Made by a program: the position numbers and the translations under genes. 64,000 nt of DNA from NCBI GenBank assembly GCA_022376465.1, contig JACDTU010000015.1, positions 496,001 to 560,000 on the forward strand, in the 5' to 3' direction. Under the pieces are notes generated by a model. That model did not search any database and was not told the DNA's origin. It saw only the letters and a list, made by a program, of their open reading frames with translations. Below are positions 2,283-52,857 of this stretch, in pieces. Numbering within the stretch: position 1 is the first letter of the stretch; every line of letters begins with the position of its first letter. This DNA is from Cubamyces lactineus (lineage: Eukaryota > Basidiomycota > Agaricomycetes > Polyporales > Polyporaceae).

Positions 2283-3822
2283 ATGGAACAACCCGCACGT
2301 TCGACAAAGGATACCCTGGTGCAAGTCACGCAAGAGCGCCTGGACATGCTCACCGGGCGGGAAGCGCAATTCGACGCGGTCTCCGACGAGATCGTCGCGT
2401 GGATGAACCTAGGCATACAGCAGCTCGGCGCGAGTGCTATCGACTGCATGCTCGTGCCAATATGCGAGAAGGCGACCAGCAGCGGCCCGGGAGCAGGAGA
2501 CTCGGAGACTCGGACGTACGCGCGCCTGTGCGGGAAGATGATGGAACAGGTCGACCCGAACGTGAAGGACGACAACGTGAAGAAGCCCAATGGTCAACCG
2601 GTTGTTGGCGCGCAGGTACTTCGTAGATACCTCACCGGCTGGTGCAGGGAGGCCGTGCAGCGCCTGTGGCCCGTGCAAAAGACGGAACCCTCGATTTCAG
2701 TTGCGTCGACGGTCGAGGACGCGAACGAGGATCAAGCTTCTCAAGGATTCGGAGAGGCCGAACAGGACAGTCATGCATCTGACTCTCCGCTGCCTTCGGA
2801 TGCGGACCACTCTGCGGTGGAGACGAAGTCGCGGCGACTCAAACTGATCACGTTCCTTTGCGAGCTGTTCAAGCTCGGAGGGGTTACAGAACGCCCGGTG
2901 CACGAGTGTATCAAGGAGATACTCAGCGACGTGGAGACCGCGGAGAGCCCCGACGAAGAGGAAATAGAGGGTTTGTGCAAGCTGTGGACGAGCATCGGCG
3001 AACTCCTGGATACCCCGAAGGCCGCTGCGCATATCAACATGTACATTGGACACATGGCGATGCTGACGAAGAGCCTCAACATATCCTCCCGTATACGACT
3101 CATGCTGCTGGTATGTGCCATGTCTACTCGCGGGCATACGTGACTGAAGGACTTCGTTACCCCAGGATATCATTGACCTGCGCGAACGCAAGTGGATACC
3201 GCACGATGACGCGGCTACATTGACAATGAACAACAATTCAAGCGATCTGGTACGCGTTACTCCTCGCGTGTGCGGCATTATGCGTTACTTACATCCCGTC
3301 GCCGAGATTCAGGCTCGTAAAGAGGCGGTCGCAGAGAAGTACGCAGGTGAATACGCAAATCTCCGTGCGAGCCAGGGGCTCACAAGGCCAAGACGCGTCG
3401 TACAGGACGCTACCTCCTCTACGAGACCAAGTAGCGAGCCGCCTTCGTTGCGGTTGTCACCAGGTCATCCCAGGTGCGGACCGATCTCGAGCCCGCCGCC
3501 GTTCTCCTTGATCAAGTCTACGTCTATATCGACGGGTGGGCACGACGGAGATGATGTCCGTCCTTCCGCGGTGGCCACTGCACACGCGATCCAGGATATC
3601 AGCAGCGTCCAATACCCAGAGGGGATCAAAGGCCCCCAACCGGGACTCAATGACGTAGCCCCGCAAGGCAAGTTCAGGTGCGTACGCGAGATGAGTAACT
3701 GTAGAGGTCCTTCACGGTACTGATACATTATACATTTCTGTAGGTACGACCTGGACTTTCTGCTGCAGTTTCAAGATGTCTGCACTATGAAGCCGGATTC
3801 GCTCCGGCCGCTGTCGGCCTGA
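2283..3822 (+). CDS. eIF4G-derived protein A: MIF4G followed by eIF4E-binding motif
   Basis: Model join(2283..3110,3166..3249,3313..3677,3744..3822), 451 aa. Residues about 15-290 form a MIF4G domain (helical repeat that binds eIF4A/RNA in eIF4G), recognisable from YARLCGKMMEQVDPNVKDD, FLCELFKLGGVTERPVHEC and the final LRERKWIP. After a Ser/Pro linker the frame enters a segment homologous to the region before the eIF4E-binding site of gene B (YPEGIKG, LNDVAPQGKFR), then YDLDFLLQF (Y427, L432, L433), a YxxxxL-hydrophobic 4E-binding motif, and stops 17 residues later. Introns 1 and 4 match gene B in position and phase, and exon 2 is 84 nt in both. Canonical eIF4G has the opposite order and an MA3 domain, absent here. 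The third intron is uncertain: its acceptor could be GAG at 3306 or CAG at 3312, both in frame. Alternative: two adjacent partial copies read through by chance. Confidence 0.55.
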
Positions 3823-4222
3823 AGTGGTTGACTGATGTCCCGGCCCTGACCTATCACCTAGTCTCTTATTCCAAGCGCCCTCCCTCCTGATCTGAATCAA
3901 GCTCCCTTGGCTCTGAACGGTGTGGTTCGGAGGTCCTCAGGCCATTGGCAGAGTTATCGTCAACACAGCCACAAACGGACCTCGACGTGCACCACGTCGC
4001 ACCAAAAGATGCGAAAACTGTCATTGCTCATTGGACCGGCGTAGTAGTTGGTTGTGCAGATCGTCCCACAATTTACTACAGTTGATGCCAGGGTGTCTTG
4101 CCTCGGGCCAAATGACCCACTCCAGTTCGCCGGTGGCATCTTCATTATCATGCAAAACTTAACTTTATTCATCTACCGCAGCACAGCGGTCGAATATTAA
4201 TGCGATCTGTTTGCGTCGCACG
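3823..4222. other. spacer between eIF4G-derived copies A and B
   Basis: No gene supported. The N-terminal low-complexity part expected upstream of the 4E-binding region in a complete eIF4G is not recognisable here. Confidence 0.5.
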
Positions 4223-6765
4223 ATGGATGAGCTCCTTACCAAGTCTCTTACACCCTCTTCCAAGCATACGCAGACACGCCCCCCCCCTACTGACGACAAG
4301 TGTCACCCCGTCCGCCTTCATCTCTCATCTATGGATAACAAAGCCGTCTTCGCGCTTCTCCCATCCGCATTGGCCACGGCGCGTATCATCGAGGATATCG
4401 ACAGCATCAAATATCCCGAGGGCATCAAGAGCCCCAAGCCGGAACTGAACGTGAACGCCAAGCAGGGCAAGTTCAGGTGCGTGGTGGTTTATGTTGGCGT
4501 GTGTGCGTGTGTGACAGCAGGTACTGATCTGAACGCACAGATACGACCGCGATTTCCTGCTGCAGTTCATGGCTGTGTGCAGGGAGAAGCCAGACTCGCT
4601 CCCGCCACTCGACGCGATTGGCCTCGAGCCCGTGGACCAAAGCTTTGCTATGACGCGCGGCGGTTCGCACGGACACGGCCGCCGCTCATCCTCGGTTGCT
4701 ATGCCCCCACCATCCTCCACCACGGCACGCCAGGCATCTGTCGGACTCGGGATCTCCGGTTTCAGCAAGCCCAACGTCAACCCGTTCACGATGGGCCTGT
4801 TCTCAACGCCCAAGTCGAGCGAAGAACGGTTCGCAGCATCAAACCGCTCGACGTCGATGTCCGGAACTGCGGGTATGCCGTTCGGACGCCCGTCGCCCAT
4901 GGTTCGCTCGTCAAGTCAAGGCCGCCCCGGGGGCAGTGGGGGGACAAGGAGTCAGCGCGGCAACACGCGCGACAAGGAACGTCCCGGTGCCGGCCCGTCA
5001 GGCGAGGGCGGCTCGCCGCTCGCCAATTCTATGTCACTCGAACCCAGTTCTCCACTTCAAGTCTCTGAAAATCGCTGGGCGCCCGCAAGTCCGGTCACAA
5101 AGGGCCAGCCTGTGGAGCACTACCCATCGGATACCGTGGACCGCGAGGTTCGGACGCTGCTAGACAAACTGACAATGGAGCGGTTCGACCCGATCTCGGA
5201 CCAGATCATCGCGTGGGCGAACAAGTCGGAGAAGGAGCAGGACGGGCGGACGCTCATCCAGGTCATCCGGCTCGTATTCGAGAAGGCGACGGACGAGGCG
5301 ACTTGGTCGGAGATGTACGCGCGCCTGTGTCGGAAGATGATGGAGCAGATCAGCCCCAATGTGCGTGACGACGGGATCAAGAACGCGGAGGGCAAGCCCA
5401 TCTCTGGCGACCAGCTTTTCCGCAAGCTCCTCCTCAACCGCTGTCAAGAAGACTTCGAGCGTGGATGGGTTGCGAAGGAGGCGGCGGGGGTTCTGGCCGG
5501 GGGAGCCAAGGCTGGGCGGGACGGGGGCGGCGGGGCTGCATTGTATCCGGGCAGGTACTACGCTGCGCAGAAGGCGAAGCGACAGGGCCTTAGTCTGATC
5601 AAGTTCATCGGCGAGCTGTTCAAGCTACAGATGCTTACGGAGCGCATCATGCACGAGTGCGTGAAGAAGCTGCTCGGCAACGTCGAGAACCCCGAGGAGG
5701 AGGAGATCGAGAGCTTGTGCAAGCTCCTGACGACCGTCGGCCAGCTCCTGGATACCCCCAAGGCCCGCGCGCATATGGATGTGTACTTTTCGCGCATGAA
5801 GGAGCTGACGAAGAGCGGCAACGTCAACTCCCGTATGCAATTTATGCTCCTGGTGAGTTACATCTTCGCAGTCATCAAAGCGCTACTCGTCTAACATTGT
5901 GACATAGGATGTGATTGAGCTACGTGAGCGCAAGTGGATTCCTCGCAACCAGTCCGCTGCACCCACTACTATTGCTGCCCTCCGTGAACAGGTGAGTTGC
6001 TCTACGGCGGTACCGTCAAGGGCTGGACCTCAAATTGACATCCGGTACTAGATCGAGAAGGAGAAGATCGCGGAGGAAAAGGATGCGATGAACCGCACTC
6101 TCAGCATGTCTCGCGGTGGCTCAAGACGTGGCGCCGACCGTGGCGAGCAGCAAATCGGTCCAGGTGGCTGGGCCGTGGCTGGTGGAGGCGCCACCCGCCC
6201 TGCCAAGGCCGGCGACCTCTCGCAGTTTGGCAAGATCGCCAAACCGACGCCGATGACCTTCGATTCCAGCTCTGTCTTCCAGAAGGACAAGTCGAAGAGC
6301 ATGGAATCGACGCTTTCTCGGCAGGGCTCGAGCAACATGTTCTCAATGCTCAGCGCCATCCCTGAGATCGCTGTCGAAGTTACCTCTGCCAAGTCGACTC
6401 GTCCACCGAGCATGAAGAGCAGCATCGACTTCGGCCCTGGTGGCGCTCCGGAGGCCCCTCCCCAACCTAAGCCGCAGCAGTTCCTGCCTTGGTCAGTGCC
6501 TCCAGAGGACAAGGCCGGCTCCACTCCTGTTGTACGAACTGCCGGATCCGATGACGAGCAAGATGAGGCTACTAGCGGGGCGACGATTTCTGTCGAAGAC
6601 TCGGAGTCCAAGACGCGGATGGAGAAGTGTTTAAAGGAATTCTACAGCTTCCGCGAACCTAACGAAGCACACCGGTGGTTCCGAAAGCTTCCCGCAGCGC
6701 ACCGGGATCCGCTCATTGAGAAGCTCATCACGAAAGCGGTCGAGTCGAAGAGGGCGGACGCATAG
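4223..6765 (+). CDS. eIF4G-like translation initiation factor B, truncated at both ends
   Basis: Model join(4223..4476,4541..5852,5908..5991,6052..6765), 787 aa. eIF4G is the scaffold linking cap-bound eIF4E, the helicase eIF4A and eIF3. The domains run in canonical order: region YPEGIKSP, then the eIF4E-binding motif YDRDFLLQF (Y86, L91, L92), a Ser/Gly/Pro-rich linker, MIF4G at about 286-550 (FDPISDQIIAW, MYARLCRKMMEQISPNV, FIGELFKLQMLTERIMHEC, LRERKWIP), a second linker, and only the first helices of MA3 (WFRKLPAAHRDPLIEKLI, about 740-787). The frame ends at TAG 6763-6765 inside MA3, and recognisable MA3 sequence follows in the same frame. The long N-terminal region usual in fungal eIF4G is missing, because copy A's end lies only 400 bp upstream. 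It is either a truncated expressed paralogue or a decaying copy. The essential genomic eIF4G is presumably elsewhere. Confidence 0.75.
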
Positions 6766-8013: not shown

Positions 8014-9536
8014 ATGCTTGACTCTGCAACGTCCGTCACTACTTCCATGCCGGCACCGCCGTCTCGGACACCTCTACAAGACTCGGATATCACCCTCTCA
8101 ATCACCCAATCGTCGGACACATATGGTGATCAAGGTGAGTCCAACTAGGCAGACTCCGACTTATTCAACTGCTCACTATGATGTTCGCTTGTAATTCAAT
8201 TAGGTAGTCCGCCACGGGAGGAACAGGATATCACACCCGACGACGCCTTCACTGCATCGAAGCGCTTGGACGGCGTCGTTGACCCGCGCTCTGTTATTTC
8301 TACTGGTGCTTGCGACGGGGAAGACTCTCATACCTCTCCTGGTTTCGCGAGCTCCTCCCATGCGGAGCTCAAGGAAGAGCCTTTGTCCAGTCATGAACAC
8401 CGTCCACCGAGAGATGTCACGGCGCGCTACAATGCCAAGATACGCACCTTACTTCACCGTCTCCATAAGGGCAACTACGTCCATACCGCAGACACACTGA
8501 TCAGGATTGTAAACAATGTACCCAACGACGATAGCGGCGGCGCCCTGAGGTCACTCACCACTCGCCTCTGTTACCTCACCATGTTGGGCGAAGGCTACGC
8601 CGACGCGGGGTTATACGCTCAACTTTCTCTGCGGCTGGCGGAGCAGCTGAGCGAGGACGTACAGGATGGACAGGCCAAATGCGGCGACGGGACGTACCTT
8701 GTGGGAGGGAAACTCTTCAAAAGCTACCTGCTCGACACGTGCCATGCAATTTTCGCGATGCGCCTGGATTCCTACGGCATCCTCGAACCTTCTAACGAGC
8801 GACGAGGATCTGACTCCGAGGATACTCAACAATCGCGACTTGACGGGGTAGGTGCCGTCCTACGTTCTACCGCCACTTCCCGCCCGAAAATACCACAAGG
8901 CCCGGGATTCATGAGGTTACTCGGCGAGCTCTTCCTTGTCGGTCTGCTCCCTCTGCGCGTCGTGCATGAGTGTGTGCGCGCGCTCCTCCACGACGTTAAG
9001 GGCGTCGAGGATGCGTGCATTCTGTTGAGCCTCGTGGGCAAGACGCTTGACGGTCGTGATACTCCTGGTCCGGACGCAGGCGCGGAGAGGCAACGGGAGC
9101 ACGTGGACGCCTACTTTGCACGTATGCAGGCGTTGGTGGGCGTGCAGGCGAGCCAGAAAGGGATGTGGAGAGTGAGGGCCAAAGTGCAGGTGAGTGCAGC
9201 CTTGACGGGTTGAGGTCGCGCGTGATGGGCCGTTGTTCTGACACGAGGCTCGGTTGACGCAGGAACTGACCGACTTGTGGGAGCGAGGTTGGACTGCGAA
9301 ATCCGACGTCGCCAGTGCGCACGACAGCAATTGTGAACATCCTGAAGTTGAAGGGAGGACACCGACTCGCCCAGGTCGGGACGGGGGGATGCGCGGGACG
9401 TGGAGTCTCAAGGTAAGCTCCTCGAGTCTACTCTACCTCATCCGGCTAAAGCTCACTTGGGGTATTCTGTTTTCAGCCAGCAGGTGCCGCAGACGAATCA
9501 GCGAGATGGAGAAACCCCGGGTACAGAGCAGCTTAG
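8014..9536 (+). CDS. eIF4G-derived protein C: divergent MIF4G-only protein
   Basis: Model join(8014..8134,8204..9189,9263..9412,9477..9536), 438 aa. All three introns have GT-AG ends and keep one frame. After a Ser/Pro-rich N-terminus, residues about 118-380 match the MIF4G of gene B block by block: KIRTLLHRL, LRLAEQLSEDVQDGQ, GGKLFKSYLLDTC, MRLLGELFLVGLLPLRVVHE, then the exon junction and ELTDLWERGW, which replaces ELRERKWIP. The intron after the MIF4G helices is at the same position as in A and B. There is no 4E-binding motif and no MA3. Divergence is much greater than between A and B, so this is an older or faster-evolving copy. It could act as a free eIF4A/RNA-binding module or interfere with eIF4F; that is speculative. 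Confidence 0.65.
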
Positions 9537-52194: not shown

Positions 52195-52857
52195 TTATTG
52201 TTTAGAGGCTTCGAGTTGCCCGGGCTGTTCTCCTCGCGAGATAGGGGCAGTTGTGTTGGCCTCGTCGAGTGCTAATGGGTCTCCGGCTCCTTTTCTCTTG
52301 CGTCGTGCTCTAGCACGCGCCTTCGCACCACTCTTTGAGAGGGCGAGGTCGGCTTGTATGGGTCCGGCTGTGCTGTGCTGGTGCTCTGATTTTCCAATGG
52401 CTTCGTTGGGTTTCAGTAGGCGCTGTCCGCGTGTCCCTCGCTTGTGACCTCCTGCGGCATTGTTGAGCAGCTCCGAGGGTTCCAATCCGTAATGAGCGAG
52501 GGGAAGTACAATGTTGGGTTTATCCACGCAGACGTGCTGGAATTGCAGAAGGAACTCGCGATTGTATCTGACCACCGTATCCGTGTTCAGTCAACCAGCC
52601 TAGAGAGATGAACTGGCAGCACACCTGTACTTCCCCGGCGGTGCAACATCATTTAGACAGGGCAGTGGGCCAGACACGCCAGCGGGATATGGGACTTTCT
52701 TCAGGTCTTTCACGAATCGTGCTCTGGCGAGTGCTTCGCAGAAGCTGTCCGGTTCCGCGGTGGGAGAGCCGGTAGCAGTGTTCGTCGCCCGACTATCCTT
52801 GCGCTCTTCTGCAGCGATCTCGCCCTCAGGCGACGCTTTATGAGCTGTTTGATCCAT
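52195..52857 (-). CDS. free-standing eIF4E-binding-motif protein derived from eIF4G
   Basis: Model complement(join(52195..52567,52625..52857)), 201 aa. ATG start MDQTAHKASPEG. The segment VPYPAGVSGPLPCLNDVAP ending in PGKYR, then the intron in the same phase-2 position as eIF4G-derived A and B, then YNREFLLQFQHVC (Y79, L84, L85), correspond to the eIF4E-binding region of eIF4G. After it come DKPNIVLPLAHYGLEPSE, also eIF4G-like, and a basic tail (AKARARARRKRKG). There is no room for MIF4G or MA3. By analogy with 4E-BPs, such a protein could compete with eIF4G for eIF4E and repress cap-dependent translation; this is inference. Alternatively it is a decaying 5' fragment, although the open, spliced frame argues for some constraint. 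Confidence 0.65.

Follow-up and report, generated by a model that had tools for sequence, protein, structure and literature searches.

A permuted, eIF4G-derived gene of Cubamyces, possibly encoding an eIF4E-binding regulator of translation

A 64,000-nucleotide stretch of the 36.3-Mb genome of the wood-decaying polypore Cubamyces lactineus (contig C7, positions 496001–560000; hereafter, the window) contains a gene, here called gene A, that looks like a real single gene derived from the translation initiation factor eIF4G, rather than a broken duplicate. It occupies window positions 2283–3822 on the forward strand, and its four exons make up one open frame for a protein of 451 residues, in which the MIF4G domain precedes the eIF4E-binding region, the reverse of the eIF4G order. 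The product is probably a regulator of protein synthesis. More specifically, we assign a probability of roughly 0.5 to its being a shortened, permuted eIF4G paralog that acts as an eIF4E-binding competitor or regulator, with weak coupling to eIF4A.

An initial annotation of this DNA had proposed a single spliced frame, running from MIF4G through a linker to a 4E-binding motif, and the gene structure agrees with it. The three introns (55, 63, and 66 nucleotides; phases 0, 0, and 2) all have GT–AG borders, and a deposited C. lactineus protein (P0001, named "armadillo-type protein") is identical to our model over all 451 residues. Because the join between the two parts falls inside one 365-nucleotide exon, no splicing choice is required to link them.

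Pfam recognized in gene A a MIF4G domain at residues 77–285 (77.9 bits, E = 1.1e-21) and, C-terminal to it, the eIF_4G1 family (PF12152) at residues 390–444 (66.9 bits against a cut-off of 27; E = 1.7e-18), scores that exclude a chance match for either domain. The PF12152 region can be aligned with the eIF4G chains 6fbz_B and 1rf8_B, and its YDLDFLLQF motif is identical in the gene A proteins of three Cubamyces species. No MA3 region was found, since the Pfam matches up to an E value of 10 consist of MIF4G and eIF_4G1 only and the protein ends at residue 451, just past the motif. As the domain content (MIF4G/HEAT-1 and the PF12152 region) is that of eIF4G, while the 4E region is not at the usual N-terminal position, gene A is most aptly called a permuted eIF4G-derived paralog.

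The canonical eIF4G gene of C. lactineus (locus L010, 4025–8848; 1550 residues) begins about 42 kb to the right of the window, with the layout N-terminal region, 4E region, MIF4G, MA3-like region. A blastn comparison with gene A gave two blocks in swapped order, with window 2370–3219 corresponding to L010 7003–7807 (63%) and window 3562–3812 to L010 6170–6410 (66%); together with the Pfam matches, these blocks bear out the eIF4G derivation and reversed order first proposed. All three gene A introns occupy canonical eIF4G positions and phases (MLL^D, phase 0; the next intron, phase 0; GKF^R, phase 2), meaning that gene A arose from genomic DNA and not from a processed mRNA. The initial annotation had noted the same match with the neighbouring eIF4G-like gene B, whose phases, computed from the intron coordinates and a start at 4223, are indeed equal to those of gene A.

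The same permuted order, which the initial annotation had suggested seeking in related polypores, was found at full length in C. menziesii (P0002, 453 residues) and in Cubamyces sp. BRFM 1775 (P0003, 449 residues), both 69% identical to gene A; hence, gene A is not a pair of broken fragments. A partial counterpart (P0004, 286 residues, 73%) continues its reading past the start of intron 1. These proteins came from a search with gene A as query, limited to proteins of 0.55–1.75 times its length, which gave 16 matches among 5560 candidates; 13 of these 16 entered one alignment of gene A relatives. An alignment-based search yielded 13 proteins from 7995 candidates, none new with respect to the first search. 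When domain order was scanned in 136 proteins (drawn in part from 120 matches listed out of 1956), the plain MIF4G-then-4E arrangement occurred only in P0001–P0003. On the sequence evidence, gene A is a true protein-coding gene that belongs to the genus Cubamyces; it has been retained in three species or more and diverges fast.

How fast can be seen by comparing C. lactineus with C. menziesii: in MIF4G, 162 of 210 positions of gene A are identical (insert excluded) versus 263 of 264 in the canonical protein (p = 1e-17), and in the eIF4E region 48 of 59 versus 68 of 71. Despite this fast change, the frame, linker, domains, and motif of gene A persist, and in each of the three species pairs the domains are better kept than insert and linker taken together (p = 1.6e-6 to 1.6e-4). 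Relative to canonical eIF4G, the ratio of nonsynonymous to synonymous substitution rates (dN/dS) is 0.17 for the eIF4E region and 0.45 for MIF4G, at dS values (1.3 and 0.9, respectively) that are near saturation. The ratios on the gene A branch itself are higher, because canonical eIF4G is strongly constrained; the speed of gene A would fit either relaxed constraint or positive selection. The MIF4G of gene A is further from its canonical counterpart than the eIF4E region is. The idea that the eIF4E region is the better-kept part holds only against canonical eIF4G, as the two domains are conserved to a similar degree within the Cubamyces trio.

Coupling of the MIF4G domain to eIF4A is probably no longer normal. 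The helix that contacts eIF4A has been rewritten in gene A and carries, in an uncertain register, an acidic residue where human eIF4GI has S767, a place at which acidic mutants of the human protein lose eIF4A. Passages of PMC10948362 give no residue contacts. In the contact mapping (MAFFT register), the basic residue 764 is absent and Asp is found at 767 in all four gene A rows. In a structure model, the domain keeps a HEAT fold, its best match being the eIF4A-bound yeast domain, and the linker is disordered.

DEAD-box genes accounted for 28 matches in the genome, and the two closest eIF4A-like genes keep an acidic partner. In four loci that were inspected among these matches (L021 and L027, which are one gene, L029, and L022), no eIF4A turned up with the reversed charge at residue 268 that would compensate. 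Locus L022, with Thr in column 265 and Ser in column 268, is presumably Dhh1-like and may be another helicase.

As the sequences show, duplication and rearrangement of eIF4G at the DNA level produced a MIF4G–linker–eIF4E-binding region protein, devoid of the canonical long N-terminal region and of the MA3 region. In the mechanism that we propose, its C-terminal motif most likely binds eIF4E and would thereby compete with full-length eIF4G for this cap-binding factor, while MIF4G would retain its fold with its normal coupling to eIF4A probably lost. On balance, this would repress translation or re-direct some of the mRNAs bound by eIF4E. The initial annotation had inferred two options, a regulator or a different tethering of eIF4E and eIF4A; the regulator seems the likelier, since the eIF4A-contact helix is altered.

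Several observations weigh against this interpretation. The mean predicted local distance difference test score of the model is 61.7, a modest confidence, and the eIF4E region is modelled as disordered except for a short helix (429–439); the GLEP segment found just after the motif in canonical eIF4G is missing. Across the three gene A pairs, the eIF4E region (48, 46, and 42 identities out of 59) is not better kept than MIF4G (162, 166, and 154 out of 210), and the protein as a whole may be changing at close to the neutral rate. As for the eIF4A contacts, the first MIF4G helix can be aligned in two registers, so that S767 corresponds to either Asp10 or Glu18; canonical eIF4G itself does not always have Ser at 767 (it is Ala in C. 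lactineus); and the basic residue 764 is lost in gene B too (Glu). Other contacts are partly kept, namely T773 in four of four rows (MAFFT register), 783 (Glu, as in yeast), and D982 in two of three spliced rows. Our literature search brought up no RNA evidence for C. lactineus.

Some of these features would also suit a working alternative scaffold, able to bind eIF4E along with a further partner (eIF4A, some other DEAD-box helicase, or eIF3) and to promote the translation of particular mRNAs; domain order would then be irrelevant, as the linker is flexible. The modelled HEAT fold and disordered linker, the retention of T773 (four of four rows) and D982 (two of three spliced rows), and a conservation of MIF4G on a par with that of the eIF4E region in the three species are all consistent with such a role, as are the eIF4E family matches at three genome places, and the helicase partner could be another of the DEAD-box genes, e.g., L022. 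We nevertheless consider it rather unlikely, given the substitutions at 764 and 767 in the face of an unchanged acidic partner in the two closest eIF4A-like genes, the missing N-terminal and MA3 regions, and the larger distance of MIF4G from the canonical domain. Marginally more doubtful is a bolder version of the competitor hypothesis, in which duplicated eIF4G would have given Cubamyces a specialized decoy, a scaffold that holds eIF4E through an intact region while charge changes in its MIF4G keep eIF4A out. This decoy would evolve at a rate tens of times that of eIF4G, possibly through a conflict with mycoviruses or other selfish elements, and would operate alongside genes D and C.

It is very improbable that gene A is a decaying duplicate, that is, two functionless eIF4G fragments read through by chance. 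Its fast divergence would agree with decay, and so would its location inside a cluster of partial eIF4G duplicates, where gene B ends early in its MA3-like region. However, intact full-length permuted counterparts exist in two other named species, and the domain-versus-linker contrast recurs in every pair. Moreover, when the neutral divergence of one pair to 69–77% identity was simulated, between 0 and 1.25% of 400 runs kept an intact frame, and 0 of 2000 simulated trios stayed intact without stops, results that are conditional on the databases holding intact models. The counterparts and simulations are the reason why broken fragments, or a pseudogene, are rejected as the principal explanation. 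Even less credible is an annotation fusion of a MIF4G-only gene with a small eIF4E-binding gene: stand-alone paralogs of both types (C and D) are predicted in the window, but the join lies within one open exon (3313–3677) and the three deposited proteins (451, 453, and 449 residues) have a common, alignable linker.

Table 1. Coordinates of gene A, its parts, and its eIF4G-related neighbours (window positions, unless a locus is given)
Feature	Position	Strand	Remarks
Gene A exon 1	2283..3110	+	Start codon, then first and second parts of MIF4G on either side of an acidic insert (residues 1–276); identical to deposited P0001
Gene A exon 2	3166..3249	+	Residues 277–304, end of MIF4G; canonical eIF4G intron positions and phases
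Gene A exon 3	3313..3677	+	Post-MIF4G linker and upstream half of eIF4E-binding region in one exon (permutation junction); linker alignable in three Cubamyces proteins
Gene A exon 4	3744..3822	+	eIF4E-binding motif, C-terminus, stop
Gene A Asp10 to Glu18 stretch	2310..2336	+	S767 equivalent is Asp10 (MAFFT register) or Glu18 (model helix borders)
Gene A MIF4G/HEAT-1 domain	2364..3201	+	Residues 28–288, split by intron 3111–3165
Gene A eIF4G-type eIF4E-binding region (PF12152)	3568..3798	+	Residues 390–444, split by intron 3678–3743; 66.9 bits
Gene A eIF4E-binding motif YDLDFLLQF	3745..3771	+	Y-x4-L-hydrophobic; short helix 429–439 in model
Gene B	4223..6765	+	Partial eIF4G duplicate, normal order; TAG 6763–6765 in MA3-like region; deposited P0005, 787 residues
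Gene C	8014..9536	+	Very divergent MIF4G-only paralog, predicted 434 residues, four exons; MIF4G 49.7 bits
Gene D	52195..52857	-	Predicted 201-residue stand-alone eIF4E-binding-region protein (YNREFLLQF), eIF4G phase-2 intron
Gene E	L011 4007–4714 and 4767 onward (contig C7, ~836 kb)		Divergent MIF4G relative, predicted 463 residues; below Pfam cut-off exon by exon

The other eIF4G relatives are listed in Table 1. A whole-genome search for further copies of gene A, in which the best candidates were scored, gave 12 matches, falling on gene A itself, the canonical gene, B, C, and D. Gene B is a recent copy of the 3' part of eIF4G (86% DNA identity, dS 0.17, dN/dS 0.37). Gene D is a possible eIF4G-derived eIF4E-binding protein (4E-BP), and in its eIF4E region the residues LND and others are common to gene A and absent from canonical eIF4G. 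The later introns of gene C, as read from the gene model, are at eIF4G positions, and this gene forms an extremely long branch in the tree; the model of gene E has an intron where canonical MIF4G has one.

In the trees, the four gene A rows were joined with full support on a stem of about 2 changes per site. One tree had 37 rows (gene E was dropped as non-matching, and a second Pleurotus domain was left out) and the other had 30; bootstraps were not settled in either. The 37-row tree put gene A by Trametes/Cubamyces with weak support (85/63) and with other long branches present. With the 30-row set, the approximately unbiased (AU) test rejected neither a grouping with the Cubamyces canonical genes plus B (p-AU 0.65) nor one with a Trametes-group set (p-AU 0.45). 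The trees thus do not fix the place of gene A among canonical eIF4Gs.

An origin by deletion between tandem eIF4G copies, as first suggested, is plausible. It agrees with the neighbouring duplicates and with the layouts of some mushroom proteins: MIF-4E-MIF-MIF in P0035 (Tricholomella) and 4E-MIF-4E-MIF in P0036 (Athelia) and P0043 (Pleurotus), the last MIF4G of P0043 being in two pieces. Five further proteins (P0019, P0029, P0037, P0061, and P0097) read 4E-MIF-MIF, and P0066 reads MIF-MIF. These repeated-unit layouts may have come from annotation that merged tandem genes; they illustrate how a permuted piece might be cut from a tandem array, and they hint at repeated eIF4G expansion in Agaricomycetes. 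Among the matches of the protein search with gene A, P0012 (MIF4G) and P0016 (eIF4E-binding region) are listed with protein-kinase domains too, and may be real fusions or annotation joins.

The linker gave no consistent significant match to canonical eIF4G. In local alignments of the three linkers, shuffled sequences did as well in 18, 39, and 122 of 300 cases against the canonical tail, and in 42, 157, and 45 of 300 against the canonical N-terminal part. The numbers out of 500 were 176, 185, and 110 for the start of the canonical tail and 103, 243, and 194 for the segment before the eIF4E site. A match between residues 315–428 of gene A and window 4178–4483 prompted a test of the linkers against the first 48 residues of gene B, where shuffles were as good in 5, 0, and 162 of 500 cases, in low-complexity sequence. 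The breakpoints are blurred because the permutation predates the three species.

A natural permuted eIF4G, occurring in several species, allows a test of whether the link between cap recognition and the helicase depends on domain order and geometry, or whether a repressor results once the two are uncoupled. The cluster around gene A also points to a lineage-specific expansion of translation-initiation factors in mushrooms, with a core factor being duplicated, cut, and rearranged in the vicinity of the original gene.

Our literature searches, which covered titles and abstract beginnings, with subscription papers mostly absent and some returns off-topic, brought up no permuted eIF4G; according to one paper, all other known eIF4Gs have their eIF4E site at the N-terminal side. 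Canonical fungal eIF4G (L010) and gene A have in common MIF4G/HEAT-1, a PF12152 region with the Y-x4-L-hydrophobic motif, and three introns. In contrast, gene A has the reversed order, no long N-terminal or MA3 region, 451 residues instead of 1550, an altered eIF4A-contact helix, and a far faster rate. The Athelia, Pleurotus, and Tricholomella proteins mentioned above also present a MIF4G followed by an eIF4E-binding region; however, they carry further MIF4G copies downstream, are not short permuted proteins, and may be annotation fusions.

Among shortened eIF4G relatives, Paip1 is not known to bind eIF4E. DAP5/eIF4G2 is reported to be devoid of eIF4E binding (PMC6076257), whereas gene A keeps a C-terminal eIF4E region. 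The minimal vIF4G of Mimivirus has its motif near the N-terminus, i.e., in the conventional order, unlike gene A (PMC12621921). A functional analogy would be with the 4E-BPs, which compete with eIF4G for eIF4E through a shared motif (PMC4164784) and of which yeast p20 and Eap1 are cases (PMC7139794), as is the metazoan 4E-BP. Gene A might occupy eIF4E in the same manner, while differing from these proteins in having a full eIF4G-type eIF4E region plus MIF4G, and in descending from eIF4G.
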